From Desulfobulbaceae bacterium (lineage in GTDB: Bacteria > Desulfobacterota > Desulfobulbia > Desulfobulbales > Desulfocapsaceae), in NCBI GenBank assembly GCA_011390165.1, contig JAABSV010000006.1, positions 1 through 64,000 of the forward strand: a stretch of DNA of 64,000 nt. Reading direction: 5' to 3'. A model generated the notes under the pieces. It was not told the origin of the DNA, ran no database searches, and saw only the letters and a program-made list of their open reading frames with translations. Made by a program: the position numbers and the translations under genes. Every line of letters begins with the position of its first letter. Position 1 is the first letter of the stretch. Shown in pieces: positions 18,559 through 49,568 of the stretch.

Positions 18559-18635
18559 CGGGGAGTGGCTCAGTCTGGTAGAGCACAGCGTTCGGGACGC
18601 TGGGGTCGGAGGTTCAAATCCTCTCTTCCCGACCA
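18559..18635 (+). tRNA. tRNA-Pro (anticodon CGG)
   Basis: A complete 77-nt cloverleaf. The acceptor stem CGGGGAG/CTTCCCG has one G-U pair. The anticodon stem CAGCG/CGCTG carries loop TTCGGGA with anticodon CGG. The T arm contains GGTTCAAATCC, and an encoded CCA end is present. A terminator follows 10 nt later. Confidence 0.97.
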
Positions 18636-18861: not shown

Positions 18862-19770
18862 ATGTTCTGGTGTCAATCGACGTTTCTTGGCCTATTCCTT
18901 CTAACCGTCAGTTTCCTCAGTGGTTGTGCTCCCTTACAAACCTCCCAGACAGCCAGCAGACTGCAGCTGATGCCAGCCTCGCAGCCCTTTCTCCAGGCTG
19001 GAGAGTACTATATTTATGATCAGGGAACCGCCGCCATGGTGACCGACAGCAGGGACGGAAACCTGCTCTGGCATATCGGCGACCGAGGCCAGGTGGTGAG
19101 CAGTCAGGATTTTTTCCTTCCCTGGCTTGAGTGGCAGGAAGGTCAAATCAAATATCAGTCGTCGATTACCTCGGTAAACGGAAGTCTGTGGCCCCTCTCC
19201 CCGGGCAAAAAAATGGACTTCGCCGTTACCGAGACGGCAACCGGGACAGATGCCGCCACCTTACCCAAGACGGTGCAAAGAACCTGGCAGTGTCTGGTGG
19301 GGGAAAATCAGCAGGTAAGCGTTCCCGCAGGGACATTTGCCAGCCATGAGGTCATCTGCAAGAGATACTCTGGCGAAGATGGCAACTGGCGCGGTACCGA
19401 GAGATATTATTATGCTCCGGAGATAGGCCACTTTGTAAAACTGGAGAGAGAGCACCCGGTCTGGCCGAAGAAGATCTACTCACTGCAGGACTATGGTTTT
19501 GCCACTACCCGTCTGCCAGCAACTGAGCAGGGCCAGCTGCTTGATCTGCTGACCAGGCTTCTGGAGCGGGGAAAGCCCGGGGAGACGGTGGTCTGGCAGT
19601 CTCAAAGCAAAAAAGCCGCAGCAATTCTCGCCCTGTCTGGACAACAACCGACCTCAGCACAGTGTCGTATCTATAGCAGCACTTTCAGCGTGCAAGGACG
19701 TCAGAGTTCCCACCAATATCAGTCGTGCCGCAACAGCAAGGGCCAGTGGGAAAAAACGAGCAACAGGTGA
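18862..19770 (+). CDS. Lipoprotein with C-terminal surface-antigen-like domain
   Basis: A 302-residue protein with a type II signal peptide (LGLFLLTVSFLSGC; lipidated Cys22), so it is anchored to the outer or inner membrane. The middle region (about 40-230) is an unrecognised beta-rich domain. The C-terminus (about 262-302, with CRIYSSTFSVQGRQ and CRNSKGQWE) resembles the short cysteine-containing C-terminal domain of Rickettsia 17-kDa/RT0821-Lpp0805 surface proteins. ATG 18862 follows a GGAGG site. It is the first gene of a same-strand series with the Gly/Ser protein 69 nt downstream, and its base composition is less GC-rich than the surrounding genes. Confidence 0.7.
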   Translation: MFWCQSTFLGLFLLTVSFLSGCAPLQTSQTASRLQLMPASQPFLQAGEYYIYDQGTAAMVTDSRDGNLLWHIGDRGQVVSSQDFFLPWLEWQEGQIKYQSSITSVNGSLWPLSPGKKMDFAVTETATGTDAATLPKTVQRTWQCLVGENQQVSVPAGTFASHEVICKRYSGEDGNWRGTERYYYAPEIGHFVKLEREHPVWPKKIYSLQDYGFATTRLPATEQGQLLDLLTRLLERGKPGETVVWQSQSKKAAAILALSGQQPTSAQCRIYSSTFSVQGRQSSHQYQSCRNSKGQWEKTSNR

Positions 19771-19839
19771 ACCGCACAGCCTGCCGGGGAGATACCAAGA
19801 TGATATTTTCCGAAACAGGCTGTTGATGGAGGACAAACG

Positions 19840-20406
19840 ATGAAAAAGATGAAGGATAGCTCTGTTTATGAAATATCAGCAAGTTACTGCGAGCAACAGC
19901 TGAGCCGGAGAGAGGCTATGGTCCGCCTGGGTCTTGTTGTGGTTGCCGGCTATGTAGCCCCCACCATGCTGACCATCAGTGACGCCAAAGCCCAGCCCGG
20001 AGGCAGCTCCGGCAGTGGCGGTTCCAGCGGTTCCAGCGGCTCCGGCAGTGGTGGTTCCAGCGGCAGCGGCGGCTCCAGCGGCTCCGGCAGCGGTGGCTCC
20101 AGCGGCTCCGGCAGCGGTGGCTCCAGCGGCTCCGGCAGCGGTGGCTCCAGCGGCTCCGGCAGCGGTGGTTCCAGCGGCTCCGGCAGCGGTGGTTCCAGCG
20201 GCACTTCGGGAAGCCGCTCCAGTGATGGTTCCTCAGGGAGTCTTGGATCCAGTGGTGGGTCAGGAAGCCGGGGTCTCGCTGGCGTATCTTCCTCCAGCAC
20301 CGGCCCCAGCAGCTCAACCGCCGGTTCACAGGGCACATCCGGAATTCAGGATCAAAGCAGCAGACAGGGCTCTTCTCTTGATGACTTCCTGGCCGGCAGT
20401 ATTTAA
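19840..20406 (+). CDS. Tat-exported Gly/Ser-repeat protein; possible modified peptide precursor
   Basis: A 188-residue protein of unknown function. Residues 1-51 look like a leader with a twin-arginine signal: SRREAM (22-27), a hydrophobic stretch (MVRLGLVVVAGYVAPTML), and an AKA cleavage site before Gln52. Residues 53-121 are nearly pure Gly and Ser in an 8-residue repeat (GGSSGSGS). Residues 122-188 remain Ser-rich and end in GSSLDDFLAGSI, which could be a recognition tail. A GGAGG ribosome site precedes ATG 19840. The kinase-like and PqqD-like genes follow directly. Together this suggests a secreted protein whose Ser residues are modified, but no experimental family is known to me. Confidence 0.75.
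   Translation: MKKMKDSSVYEISASYCEQQLSRREAMVRLGLVVVAGYVAPTMLTISDAKAQPGGSSGSGGSSGSSGSGSGGSSGSGGSSGSGSGGSSGSGSGGSSGSGSGGSSGSGSGGSSGSGSGGSSGTSGSRSSDGSSGSLGSSGGSGSRGLAGVSSSSTGPSSSTAGSQGTSGIQDQSSRQGSSLDDFLAGSI
20071..20205 (+). repeat. 24-bp coding tandem repeat (GGSSGSGS)
   Basis: About 5.5 copies of a 24-bp unit containing GGCTCCGGCAGCGGTGGC encode the Gly/Ser octapeptide. Copies are almost identical, with silent GGC/GGT and TCC changes, suggesting recent expansion. Confidence 0.9.
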
Positions 20407-20440
20407 CGAGCGAACCTGACCTGGAGATACGAACCTCCCG

Positions 20441-21286
20441 ATGGCTGAGAAGCGGCTGGTACGGTTGCGTGGTCTCAAACGGCTGATCCTCTTTGACGGC
20501 ACCGTCGAGTTGCTGGATCTCTGTAACCGGGTGTTCGCTGATTTCAGCGAAGAAAGCCGGGCCCACATGAACCGAGACAACCTGGCCGCAGTTATCAGAC
20601 GTGATTCTGACTGGTATGTACGACGTTCCCGTTGGCTACCGGAGGCCGTGAGGCATAACGATGCCCTGGAGGCGGTCTGTGATCTGACCGTCGACTATTT
20701 CCACTGCTTCAGCGAGGATAACCCCGGGACCCTTTGCCTGCATACTGCTGCTGCCAAGGTGGGTTCAGGATTGATGCTTTTTCCCGGCTATTACCGCCAG
20801 GGAAAGAGTCTGTTTACTGCCCATCTGGCCGCCCAGGGAATCGAAATCTTCACTGATGACGCACTGCCGGTTGACGATGATAATGGTTTTGGCACAGCCA
20901 TGGGCCTGTATCCCAGGCTGCGACAGCCTTTGCCGGACACCACTCCAGGGGCGGTATTGTCCTTCATCCGTTCAAGGATCTCAGTGGAAAACCAGAACTA
21001 TATCTATCTCGCTCTGAAGCCGGGAGAACTTGCGGAGTTCGGAACCCGGGAAAAGATCACCGGAATCACCCTGCTTCACCGGGAGAGGGGAAGAACGGCA
21101 GAACTGGAGGAAGTGTCACGGGCAGCTGTGGTCAAGGAGCTGATTTTGAGAAACTTTGCTAAAGATATTGAGGCACTGGAGATCTTGGATCGGGTGATGG
21201 CCATGGTTGCGGCGAGCGACTGCTACCGGCTCTGCTACGATGACCCAGCCCAGGCGGCTGCCCTGATTGCCCGGGAACTGGCATAG
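20441..21286 (+). CDS. HprK-related serine kinase-like protein
   Basis: A 281-residue protein resembling the HPr kinase/phosphorylase-related kinases that sit next to PqqD-like genes (the HPr-rel-A type of system). A Walker A motif GYYRQGKS is visible at about residues 119-126 after a beta-rich N-terminal part. An acidic FTDDALPVDDDNG segment follows and could bind metal. The true HprK capsid-type motifs are not complete, so the substrate is probably not HPr. It lies 34 nt after the Gly/Ser gene and 5 nt before the PqqD-like gene, so the three genes are very likely one operon. I infer that it modifies Ser residues of the Gly/Ser protein or its relatives. Confidence 0.72.
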   Translation: MAEKRLVRLRGLKRLILFDGTVELLDLCNRVFADFSEESRAHMNRDNLAAVIRRDSDWYVRRSRWLPEAVRHNDALEAVCDLTVDYFHCFSEDNPGTLCLHTAAAKVGSGLMLFPGYYRQGKSLFTAHLAAQGIEIFTDDALPVDDDNGFGTAMGLYPRLRQPLPDTTPGAVLSFIRSRISVENQNYIYLALKPGELAEFGTREKITGITLLHRERGRTAELEEVSRAAVVKELILRNFAKDIEALEILDRVMAMVAASDCYRLCYDDPAQAAALIARELA

Positions 21287-21291
21287 AAGAT

Positions 21292-21594
21292 ATGGGCTCG
21301 ACAAAAATTGACCCGGAACAGTTCCTGATAAAAGAGCCCACTGTGGTCGTCAGAGAGGTAGGGGATGAGGCTTTTCTGGTTCACGCCGAGGCAATCCTGC
21401 ACCTCAACCCGCTGGCCGCTGCTCTCTGGAAACTGCTGGATCAACCCTGCAGCATCAGGCAGGCGGTGGACCTGCTGCACACAGTCTACCCCGAGGCCAG
21501 CCGTCAGCAGCTCGACAAGGATGTCGAGCTGCTGTTTGCACAGATGCTTGGCAAGAACCTGCTCCAAACTGTCGACCTGGGTGAGCAGTTCTGA
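21292..21594 (+). CDS. PqqD-family peptide chaperone / RiPP recognition element
   Basis: A 100-residue protein with the winged-helix PqqD fold pattern: VVREVGDEAFLVHAEAILHLNPLAAALWKLLDQP followed by the helical SIRQAVDLLHTVYP. PqqD-type proteins bind leader peptides and present them to modifying enzymes. The ATG is only 5 nt after the kinase stop codon. The obvious candidate client is the Gly/Ser-repeat protein two genes upstream. Confidence 0.82.
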   Translation: MGSTKIDPEQFLIKEPTVVVREVGDEAFLVHAEAILHLNPLAAALWKLLDQPCSIRQAVDLLHTVYPEASRQQLDKDVELLFAQMLGKNLLQTVDLGEQF

Positions 21595-23090: not shown

Positions 23091-23831
23091 TCAGGTCAGG
23101 CTGATGGTGGTGAGTGAGGAGGGGTGGAATCTCCCCCCCAGGGTGTAGCGGGAGCCTGGGTAGTAGAAGGTGCTGAAGGTGGCGACCTGCTCCCCCACCC
23201 AGGTCTTGCGGTGCAGGGCCAGGCAGGGTTCGGCGCTGTTCACCTGGAGGAGATCGCGAATCCAGCGGTCGGGGATGAGGGCCTCGACCACATGCTCGAT
23301 GGAACTCACCGGGGCGACGCTGAGCAGATATTCGCTGGCGGTGCAGCGGGTGAAATCCTGCTCGAGATAGTGCGGGGCAACGGCCGGGTTGATATAGCGG
23401 CAGCCCACCTGGATCGGCACGTCGTTGTCCTTGTGGACGATCACCGAGTAGTAGACAGTGCTGTAGGGGGCGAGCTGCATTGCCGCCGCCAGCTGCGGGC
23501 TGGCCTTCTCTTCCTGGAGGACGTGTACGGTGCAGGAGTGGCGTCCACCGCGGGCGCGGATCTCCTCGGCGATGGAACGGATCTCGAGGAGCGGTGACTG
23601 AGGCTTTCTCTCGGCGACAAAGGTGCCGCGCCCCTGTACCCGCCTGATCCGGCCCTCGTCACTCAGTTCGCGCAGGGCGCGGTTGACCGTCATCCGCGAG
23701 ACGTTGAGGGTGGTGACCAGTTCGGTCTCGGAGGGGATGCGCATCCCGGTGGCCAGTTCACCACTGTCGATCTTGTCGCTGATAAACTCCTTGACCTGAC
23801 GATAGAGGGGCTGCCGTGCCGATTGGTCCAT
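23091..23831 (-). CDS. hutC: Histidine-utilisation repressor (GntR family, HutC)
   Basis: A 246-residue GntR/HutC regulator. The N-terminal winged helix (PSETELVTTLNVSRMTVNRAL, RRVQGRGTFVAE) is followed by a UTRA ligand-binding domain (about 80-240). HutC proteins repress hut genes and are released by urocanate. It lies 40 nt downstream of hutH on the same strand, so it is probably part of a hutH-hutC transcript and autoregulated through the palindromes at 25498-25562. Confidence 0.93.
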   Translation of the reverse strand: MDQSARQPLYRQVKEFISDKIDSGELATGMRIPSETELVTTLNVSRMTVNRALRELSDEGRIRRVQGRGTFVAERKPQSPLLEIRSIAEEIRARGGRHSCTVHVLQEEKASPQLAAAMQLAPYSTVYYSVIVHKDNDVPIQVGCRYINPAVAPHYLEQDFTRCTASEYLLSVAPVSSIEHVVEALIPDRWIRDLLQVNSAEPCLALHRKTWVGEQVATFSTFYYPGSRYTLGGRFHPSSLTTISLT

Positions 23832-48356: not shown

Positions 48357-49427
48357 TTATTCCTCTTTCTTCCCTTTGATCAAGCGCTTGCCGATGCCGA
48401 CGGCGGCGTGGATGCCCACTGCCGCAGCGGTAACCCCAAGGACCGTTTTGCCGACATTGTCGGCGCTGTCTATAATGCCGCCGCCGGGAATTTTCGCCAT
48501 CGGCAGCCGCTCATAGAAGGGGGTCATGGTGTCCCAGAAGTTCGGTTCGGTGCAGCCGATACAGCCATGGCCGACACTGACCGGCCACACCTCGACATCG
48601 TTGAAGCGGACGGCCGGACAGTTGGAGAAGGTCTCCGGCCCCTTGCAGCCGACCTTGTAGAGGCAGTAGCCCAGTTTGTGGAACTCGTCGCCGAACTGTT
48701 CGACAAAGCGGCCCTCGTCGAAATGGGCGCGCCGCTCGCAGTGGTCGTGGATGCGGCGCCCGTAGGCGAAGAGCGGTCGGTTGAGGCTGTCGAGGACCGG
48801 CAGACGGTTAAAGGTGAGATAGTGGAGAATGGTGCCGAGAAAGGAGATCGGGTTGGGGGGGCAGCCGGGGATGTTGACGATCGGCTTGCCGCTGACCAGA
48901 TCCTGGACACCCACCGCGCCGGTGGGGTTGGGAGCGGCCGCCTGGACCCCGCCGAAGGTGGCACAGCTGCCGATGGCGATGATCGCCGAGGCCTTCGGGG
49001 CCACCTCGGCGAGAATTTCCATGGCCGTCTTGCCGGCGATCATGCAGTAGATGCCGTTCTCCTTGGTGGGAATCGCCCCTTCGACCACCAGGAGAAAGGG
49101 GTGGTTGTTGACCGTGTCGTGGAGATTTTGTTCGGCCTGGTGGCCGGCCGCCGCCATCACCGTCTCATGGTAGTCGAGGGAGATGATGTCCAGCAGCAAG
49201 CGGGCCAGGTCCGGGTGGGAGGCGCGCAACAGGCTTTCGGTGCAGCCGGTACACTCCTGGAAGTGGAGCCAGATGACCCGGGGCCGCTCGGCATTGGCGG
49301 CCGCCTCGACCAGCCTGGGAATCATCGCCTCGGACAGTCCCAGGGCGGCAGCGGCCATCGTGCACCCTTTGAGGAACCCGCGCCGATCAAGCTGCGGATT
49401 CATCGTCTTGCTTACGTTGTCTGCCAT
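48357..49427 (-). CDS. [NiFe] hydrogenase small subunit with Tat signal
   Basis: A 356-residue precursor with a twin-arginine signal (LDRRGFLKGCTMAAAALGL, residues 13-31). It has the proximal cluster ligands ECTGCTE (Cys59, Cys62), GSCATFGG, NIPGCPPNP, the medial/distal cluster region HCERRAHF, YKVGCKGPETF, NCPAVRFN and GHGCIGCTEPNFWD. A C-terminal membrane helix (about 325-345) anchors it near the cytochrome b. It is the first gene of the hydrogenase operon; ATG 49427 has GGAGG seven bases upstream. Confidence 0.96.
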   Translation of the reverse strand: MADNVSKTMNPQLDRRGFLKGCTMAAAALGLSEAMIPRLVEAAANAERPRVIWLHFQECTGCTESLLRASHPDLARLLLDIISLDYHETVMAAAGHQAEQNLHDTVNNHPFLLVVEGAIPTKENGIYCMIAGKTAMEILAEVAPKASAIIAIGSCATFGGVQAAAPNPTGAVGVQDLVSGKPIVNIPGCPPNPISFLGTILHYLTFNRLPVLDSLNRPLFAYGRRIHDHCERRAHFDEGRFVEQFGDEFHKLGYCLYKVGCKGPETFSNCPAVRFNDVEVWPVSVGHGCIGCTEPNFWDTMTPFYERLPMAKIPGGGIIDSADNVGKTVLGVTAAAVGIHAAVGIGKRLIKGKKEE

Positions 49428-49568
49428 ATCAACCTCCTCGCGTTGTGTGACGACAGTGCGCTGGTTGCGCGTATGCTCCGGCATCATCGCTGCCGAAAAA
49501 ATGTGCGGTCAGAAGAGTACGAAGAGTACGTTCTGGCCGTTGGATAGTCTGTTGTCCCGGTGCCGGCA

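Follow-up and report, generated by a model that had tools for sequence, protein, structure and literature searches.

A conserved set of exported Ser-rich repeat protein, HprK-like kinase and PqqD-type adaptor in Desulfocapsaceae: a putative system for phosphorylation before Tat export

Why would a bacterium encode an exported protein rich in glycine and serine immediately ahead of a kinase and a peptide-binding adaptor? The question is raised by a 64,000-nucleotide stretch (hereafter the window; positions 1 to 64,000 of contig JAABSV010000006.1, Desulfobulbaceae bacterium, GCA_011390165.1), in which a unit of four plus-strand genes encodes a lipoprotein, a Gly/Ser-repeat protein, an HprK-like kinase and a PqqD-type RRE (RiPP recognition element, where RiPP denotes a ribosomally synthesized and post-translationally modified peptide). 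A sequence-only reading of positions 18862-21594 had described the last three genes and had proposed that the kinase and the PqqD-like protein modify Ser of a secreted repeat protein. Its account of the locus holds, from the gene positions and their spacing (34 nt between the Gly/Ser and kinase genes, 5 nt between the kinase and PqqD genes) to the twin-arginine leader (RR at residues 23-24), the expanded repeat (a 24-bp array of 7.4 copies) and the C-terminal SSLDDFLAGSI; the lipoprotein gene (18862-19770) had been left undescribed and belongs to the unit. The functional proposal is likewise well supported by comparison (leader motif, RRE contact residues, conserved gene set), and we consider it probable, though far from assured, that the unit is a dedicated system by which a Ser/Thr-rich repeat protein would be phosphorylated in the cytosol and then exported through the twin-arginine translocation (Tat) pathway.

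Within the window the Gly/Ser protein is an outlier, with 38% Ser+Thr against a mean of 11% and a next-highest value of 18% (41 non-overlapping open reading frames, ORFs, of at least 150 aa). No NCBIfam or Pfam family was found for it, and no Pfam family for the kinase. The host, a 3.59-Mb draft genome, has the kinase in one copy and encodes TatC.

The conserved neighbourhood, whose absence had been named beforehand as one refuting condition, is present in four close relatives and in a wider family. By using the kinase sequence alone against 97 related genomes (E <= 0.001), we recovered 13 matching genomes (the window's own included), four of which were close (42-44% identity): a Desulfofustis metagenome-assembled genome (MAG), a Desulfobacterales MAG, a Desulfobulbaceae MAG and the complete genome of Desulfopila sp. 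IMCC35008 (Desulfocapsaceae, Desulfobulbales). All four encode a Gly/Ser-repeat leader protein, the kinase and PqqD in the order seen in the window, and since they were found via the kinase only, this recurrence indicates that the arrangement is more than chance. A scan of genome contigs with the single kinase sequence gave no match, and one with the kinase alignment recovered the same four relatives.

The distribution is patchy, with the kinase present in 8 of 257 genomes of the order and in 1 of 15 of the window's genus. Two genomes from another family of the same order (G134 and G137) carry a leader protein next to a kinase-RRE fusion, and a third from that family (G124) has a kinase match at a locus cut by the contig end. 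In a sample of the phylum, 3 of 395 genomes matched the kinase profile (two already known), the third of which (G483) pointed to a second order. Of 297 genomes sampled there, 25 matched (G483 included), and in 24 of these 25 loci a leader protein lay at most 1.5 kb from the kinase. Among 72,556 plasmid records six matched (hosts Shinella and Paracoccus), and phage records gave no match. Kinase and RRE are read in one frame in 31 of 36 distinct members and are separate in exactly the five close ones. Judged from these comparisons, the repeat protein, the HprK-like kinase and the RRE are a conserved set. That an ordinary secreted, linker-like Gly/Ser protein simply came to lie beside an unrelated kinase/PqqD pair is hardly credible: low-complexity Gly/Ser proteins do arise easily by repeat expansion, and the gene holds a tandem array, yet leader and kinase are found together in two orders of the phylum and also on plasmids of Alphaproteobacteria.

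In the window the leader reads SRREAMVRLGLVVVAGYVAPTMLTISDAKA. A profile built from 13 leaders and run on six-frame translations of the collected loci yielded 42 distinct substrates (E values from 5e-17 to 9.4e-3), with ordinary Tat signals scoring from 0.3 upward and without the motif described here. One protein adjoining another HprK-like gene (L006/L119, 6.6e-3) was left out because it had no YxxP, and that of L167 (Paracoccus, 9.4e-3) was kept as a near copy of the one in L166. The motif YxxPx[hydrophobic] occurs in all 42 leaders (outside the first seven genomes this count is in part dependent, as the substrates were gathered with a profile of their own leaders), with the Tyr invariably at position -14 counted from the end of an AxA-like site, and 41 of the 42 have the twin arginine; among the five close members Y38 and P41 are invariant. 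In the subset picked beside the kinase without a motif filter (the five close loci, G134 and G137), the motif was present in 7 of 7. As a control, it was found within 35 residues of RR in none of 30 ordinary Tat signals (the best-scoring retained TIGR01409 loci in 18 genomes, comprising 22 distinct starts), and in 11 of 489 arbitrary 36-aa tiles of window ORFs. Run against 252 genomes of the order, the leader profile gave seven full-length matches (E <= 6.8e-16), every one in a kinase-bearing genome, and the next match (1.6e-4) was partial; the kinase search of 257 genomes returned those same seven and the eighth, at the contig end.

This motif has a published counterpart. According to Popov et al. 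2026 (PMC13381572; this report, PMC8498205 and PMC12452194 are all cited here from partial texts), the discrete RREs of lasso peptides and of linear polyphosphorylated peptides (LPPs) bind [Y/W]xxPx[hydrophobic], where LppA has the Tyr at position -16 and PbaA the Trp at -15. Three LppB residues make the contacts: N33 at the Pro kink, which it holds, D70, which forms a bond with the Tyr, and F74 in the lining of the pockets. The assignment of the fourth gene to the PqqD/RRE type stands at 47.7 bits (Pfam cut-off 23.4), and the best relatives of its profile among known structures were TbiB1, PbaB1, LppB, TfuB1 and PqqD (one further match, the repeat protein 8vd6, was due to its repeats). The contact residues are largely kept over 36 loci: position 39 (N33 in LppB) is N in 30, D in 5 and T in 1, position 77 (D70) is D in 32 and E in 4, and position 81 (F74) is L in 34. 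The locus combines the features of an RRE-dependent RiPP-like system (a PqqD-type RRE with leader-binding residues and a precursor leader with [Y/W]xxPx[hydrophobic]) with those of a Tat substrate (twin arginine, hydrophobic stretch, AxA site and TatC in the genome). Considering the published motif in the leader, the contact residues kept in the RRE and the relatives of the RRE profile, the leader is most likely both a Tat signal and an RRE ligand, with the binding motif placed inside the very hydrophobic stretch that Tat must see.

The P-loop kinase had been described as HprK-related, and this is borne out by GYYRQGKS and TDD and by a relation to HprK_rel_A (TIGR04352) that, at 30.7 bits, stays far below the cut-off of 200, which none of 93 genomes of the window's family passes. 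GKS and DD occur unchanged in all eight members aligned, and both the Walker A motif and DD align with Lactobacillus casei HprK/P. In HprK kinases DD has a catalytic role. A pattern search found the signature PR[LI]RxPLP in 32 of the 36 members and in 0 of the 36 further HprK-like proteins in the same table, and in a tree of 60 of the 72 sequences (L031, L123, L074, L088 and domains shorter than 150 aa were excluded) 35 members fall on one side of a branch with support 80/91. We regard it as quite improbable that kinase-like protein and RRE act instead as a Tat proofreading chaperone that binds ATP and leaves the core unmodified: the position of the RRE motif within the Tat hydrophobic stretch and the degenerate Walker A of the close group would suit such a role, whereas the invariance of GKS and DD, the retention of Ser while the rest of the cores changes, and the activity of related HprK-like RiPP enzymes as kinases (PMC13381572, PMC8498205) speak for catalysis.

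Which residue would be modified is suggested by the cores (the parts that follow the leader), which are unrelated in sequence: Gly-Ser, Ser-Arg and Arg-Pro-Ser, Arg-Tyr-Ser, and Arg-Tyr/His-Thr/Ser repeats. The combined share of Ser and Thr in the 42 cores lies between 10 and 55% (minimum 10.2%, median 20.5%; for three subtilases only the first 40 core residues were counted), and Ser is the sole single residue that reaches at least 5% in every core (minimum 5.0%), the next being Arg (minimum 0.7%), with Gly down to 0%. That Ser is kept whatever repeat partner it has suggests that selection acts on the hydroxyl. Arg as the modified residue was ruled out, as the Gly/Ser cores have only 1-5% of it.

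Known HprK-like RiPP kinases have Ser as their target, and one residue often receives several phosphates; LppK attaches them solely to S3 of the core (PMC13381572), while paeninodin-type kinases act on a C-terminal Ser (PMC8498205). By analogy, a single Ser near the leader or at the C-terminus could be polyphosphorylated here and the repeats could serve as an inert spacer, an explanation that we deem unlikely, albeit the foremost of the alternatives. Ser does occur within the first five residues of 33 of the 42 cores (near the composition expectation), but none of the 42 ends in Ser, and in L158, L152 and L145 the first Ser comes only at core positions 14, 20 and 23, respectively. A single target would also leave unexplained why Ser is retained in all the low-complexity cores although their content of Gly, Arg and Pro shifts so freely.

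We favour phosphorylation along the core, for which the following sequence of events may be envisaged. The RRE would bind the leader via the Tyr and Pro of its motif, recruit the kinase and mask the export signal until modification is complete; the kinase would modify Ser/Thr throughout the core, so that the Gly/Ser type becomes a polyphosphoserine polyanion and the Ser/Arg type a chain in which Arg and phosphoserine alternate; Tat would then export the product, and signal peptidase I would cut after AxA. In the version found in the window, the mature protein would work alongside the lipoprotein in the envelope, in the role that an acidic repeat protein has in relatives.

Two elements of the sequence-only reading fare less well. 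It had accounted for Tat export by a folded substrate, an idea that finds no support in the cores, which are of low complexity (Gly/Ser or Ser/Arg type) with no sequence sign of a fold. A more plausible reason for the use of Tat may be that an ATP-dependent modification has to be completed in the cytosol, ahead of export. It had also offered the C-terminal tail as a second docking site for the PqqD-like protein; the tail is not shared beyond the five close members (cores compared by eye). Only on the plasmids are folded substrates likely: the three records examined encode a small leader protein, an S8 subtilase and then a fusion annotated just as 'PqqD family protein', and their subtilases bear the same leader type and a Ser-containing segment ahead of the protease part, which makes them probable folded co-substrates of the kinase-RRE fusion. 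The subtilases of the Shinella and Paracoccus plasmids (L165:3151-4488 and L166:3236-4504) have genes for a sigma factor and an anti-sigma-like protein in their vicinity, and L165:1801-2502, beside the plasmid cassette, is anti-sigma-like (zf-HC2 just under cut-off).

An independent line of evidence comes from the lipoprotein, which adjoins the cassette in all four genomes (the window included) where the contig extends far enough (5' in three, 3' in Desulfopila; the Desulfofustis contig ends just upstream of the cassette). Its relatives score below the Pfam cut-offs for DUF3108-like and 17-kDa-antigen-like families. A lipoprotein exclusive to the cassette was ruled out by full-length homologues found elsewhere, of which 17 loci were examined. 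In 14 of them (L200-L203 and L205-L214) it is paired with or fused to acidic repeats (e.g., DPADDDPADDD, GTDTGTGTDTG): nine have a secreted acidic repeat protein as neighbour (four with 34-42% D+E, five of GTDTG/GTDPG/GDTG type), and in the other five the lipoprotein itself carries a fused acidic stretch. The repeat of L213 contains a run of N, the acidic stretch of L214 is modest, and the acidic partner of L200 (the one scanned) matched no Pfam family. As for the remaining three, L198 shows a partial Tat/YxxP leader after the lipoprotein relative at a contig end, and L199 and L204 have neither acidic partner nor leader. Since the same lipoprotein partners either encoded acidity or Ser repeats together with a kinase, the comparison suggests that phosphoserine substitutes for acidic residues, an argument that applies to the Gly/Ser type only. 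Beside the lipoprotein relative of L199, an anti-sigma-like protein (L199:3006-3716; by eye, no Pfam match) was noticed, and a shared regulation of lipoprotein relative and plasmid cassette via such proteins is possible.

Is this, then, a known system under another guise? By sequence it is related to, but distinct from, the LPP and lasso-peptide kinases. With LPP (LppA/LppK/LppB/LppS, PMC13381572) it has in common an HprK-like kinase and a PqqD-type RRE, YxxPx[hydrophobic], the lack of a macrolactam cyclase and, probably, a leader cut by a signal-peptidase-type enzyme. The LPP cluster contains a signal peptidase I (SpI, SipW-like), a nucleoside triphosphate (NTP) transferase and an MsbA-like transporter, none of which was found among the scanned neighbours of the window unit and of three relatives (10 proteins; other loci were read as ORF or annotation lists). 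Further, unlike the LPP leader the window-type leader is itself a Tat signal, with the Tyr at -14 rather than -16; its substrate has a low-complexity, Ser-containing core of 30-170 residues (longer in the subtilases), and kinase and RRE are fused in most members. LPPs are reported from Bacillota, whereas the window-type cassette was seen in Desulfobacterota and Alphaproteobacteria. The LPP leader consensus YxxPxVLxHQxIxFETxxS is absent, with only YxxPx[hyd] in common, and the window type has RR..L.LGLA and ..EAxA in its place. Paeninodin-type lasso kinases (PMC8498205) resemble the window type as HprK homologues acting on Ser of a linear precursor in RRE-containing clusters; the window-type kinases occupy the separate branch described above, and neither a macrolactam cyclase (asparagine synthase-like) nor a B2 protease was found among the scanned neighbours or in the ORF lists of the loci. 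In its presumed working the system resembles phosphorylation in LPPs and lasso peptides. We did not file it as LPP or lasso because peptidase, transporter, NTP transferase and cyclase were unseen among the scanned neighbours and the LPP consensus was lacking.

Phosphoserine could also be a mere intermediate that a further enzyme converts, either by glycosyl transfer to the phosphate or by elimination to dehydroalanine, as in the case of pseudomycoidin, where an NTP transferase glycosylates the phosphate (PMC8498205). We give this little credence, given that no lyase or NTP transferase was present among the scanned neighbours. HprK_rel_A loci in the window's family often hold a further gene, which we take to be an NTP transferase.

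The loci of that kinase type (TIGR04352) show a similar design, with an HprK-like kinase, a PqqD-like protein and, in 13 of 40 HprK_rel_A- or lasso-type kinase places, a nearby leader with RR and [W/Y]xxPx[hydrophobic], usually WxxPxI...LPxHA, before an AxA/AHA-type site (L100, L106, L108-L111, L116-L118, L121, L123, L124 and L139). They differ in that the leader proteins are mostly not low-complexity repeats and in the low score of the window kinase. The count rests on a pattern allowing V.A leader ends within the stretch fetched per locus. L127 and L137 (lasso-type precursors that lack a Tat signal), L120 (an unrelated enzyme) and one shadow ORF of L139 were discarded, and the entries for L118 and L139 depend on ORFs overlapping a longer ORF. 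As 13 of the 40 places carry one, this second class suggests that the composite Tat/RRE leader may be more general than the PRLRxPLP-clade cassette.

A cleavable export signal that doubles as the leader of a cytosolically modified protein is also described for bufferins and other RiPPs modified by multinuclear non-haem iron-dependent oxidases (MNIO; PMC12452194), though these use Sec instead of Tat, MNIO oxidation of Cys and, in place of a PqqD RRE, a DUF2063-type partner; Tat is nowhere mentioned in the partial text of that paper. No description of a system such as the present one was found in the open-licence literature, and the main text of two RRE-mining papers contains none of the words kinase, HPr or Tat. 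In eukaryotes, SR proteins with their kinase SRPK and phosphophoryn-like phosphoproteins combine Ser repeats (with Arg or small/acidic residues) with a dedicated kinase. This is an analogy of design only, without homology, for the window system is bacterial, has an export signal and employs an HprK-like kinase.

Several observations weigh against phosphorylation along the core followed by Tat export. Binding, phosphorylation and export are deduced indirectly, from sequence comparison; the motif count is partly dependent, as said; one leader (L152) has no RR, and one of the 25 loci of the second order (L156) has no neighbouring substrate. The similarity of the kinase to HprK of known structure is weak (E 0.035), and an AlphaFold 2 model built from five sequences is poor (predicted local distance difference test, pLDDT, 66) and gave no significant Foldseek match (most of the top ones being phosphoenolpyruvate carboxykinase and HprK, all at E >= 0.03). 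The Walker A of the close group is unusual (xxYRxGKS), with the first Gly missing in four of five and the inner Gly of GxxGxGKS replaced by Arg in all five, which leaves room for a loss of kinase activity; the canonical form is kept in two distant members (L141 and L156). Characterised HprK-like RiPP kinases target one particular Ser and not many, and the late first Ser of L145, L152 and L158 counts here as well. Over the 42 cores, the minima of some residue pairs exceed that of Ser+Thr (Gly+Arg 22.5%, Arg+Ser 19.4%, Gly+Ser 11.3%). Acidity cannot simply be the shared purpose, given the Ser/Arg type, and the five GTDTG-type lipoprotein partners are rich in Thr/Ser without having a kinase (22-27% S+T and 15-24% D+E in the three measured), which blurs the contrast in acidity.

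The broadest formulation, for which we would claim slightly less than an even chance, is that of a widespread bacterial class of exported hyperphosphorylated repeat proteins, in which an RRE-kinase would grip YxxP in the Tat stretch, phosphorylate tens of Ser/Thr and by its release permit Tat export, the Desulfocapsaceae product being a polyanion that replaces the acidic repeat partner. To our knowledge, cases in which low-complexity proteins are phosphorylated at many sites by a dedicated kinase come mainly from eukaryotes, and the surprise, if the proposal is true, would be a bacterial counterpart that has a kinase, an adaptor and an export signal of its own. The reach of RRE-guided chemistry would then go beyond short peptides and include long repeat proteins. 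The discussion of PMC12452194 asks how premature export of a modified precursor is prevented when that precursor bears an export signal; the system would offer a concrete answer, in that the motif bound by its adaptor is part of the signal itself. The features of the unit are collected in the table below.

Table 1. Coordinates of the unit, its sequence features and the adjoining tRNA gene in the window (aa, amino acids).
Feature	Position	Strand	Basis or remark
tRNA-Pro (CGG)	18559..18635	+	ARAGORN; directly 5' of the unit, context only, not a part of it
Lipoprotein, LSGC lipobox, DUF3108-like/17-kDa-antigen-like C-terminal part	18862..19770	+	Lipobox read from sequence
Putative substrate, Tat-leader Gly/Ser repeat protein, 188 aa	19840..20406	+	ORF, relatives
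Twin arginine R23-R24 of the leader	19906..19911	+	Sequence; RR in 41/42 substrates
YVAPTM, residues 38-43, putative RRE-binding motif YxxPx[hydrophobic] within the Tat hydrophobic stretch	19951..19968	+	Published motif (PMC13381572, partial text)
AKA, residues 49-51, predicted signal-peptidase-type cleavage site	19984..19992	+	Sequence
Core, 137 residues, 46% Ser+Thr, 36% Gly; proposed phosphorylation region	19993..20403	+	Composition
24-bp tandem array, 7.4 copies	20032..20202	+	Repeat detection in core
HprK-like kinase, PRLRxPLP clade (PRLRQPLP in the window), 281 aa	20441..21286	+	Profiles, tree
Walker A GYYRQGKS, kinase residues 116-123	20786..20809	+	Profile alignment with HprK/P Walker A
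Kinase Asp139-Asp140 (TDD), counterpart of HprK DD	20855..20860	+	Invariant in 8/8; aligned with HprK/P DD
PqqD-type RRE, 100 aa	21292..21594	+	Pfam 2e-12; profile matches to leader-binding lasso/LPP RRE structures
RRE Asn39, counterpart of LppB N33 (holds Pro kink)	21406..21408	+	Alignment; contact from PMC13381572 (partial text)
RRE Asp77, counterpart of LppB D70 (hydrogen bond to leader Tyr)	21520..21522	+	Alignment; contact from PMC13381572 (partial text)

The G+C content of the cassette is 57.3% against 62.7% for the window (a difference of about one standard deviation of 900-bp windows), and this lower value, the adjacency of tRNA-Pro and the presence in a single genome of the 15 in the genus suggest a horizontal gain of the cassette. 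All five close Gly/Ser proteins have a terminal Ile or Leu soon after an acidic residue (DDFLAGSI, DDGSL, DFSSSGI, DDGGI and NDNI; window 20374-20403 and loci L002-L005). In Desulfopila, about 5 kb from the cassette, a Zeta-toxin-like and a ParD-like gene form a pair (L019:2043-3055, Pfam), probably a toxin-antitoxin module. Elsewhere in the window, both on the minus strand, 23091-23831 encodes a HutC-type histidine utilisation repressor (above the NCBIfam cut-off), and 48360-49508 a protein, presumably of the hydrogenase small-subunit type, whose Tat signal is without YxxP.

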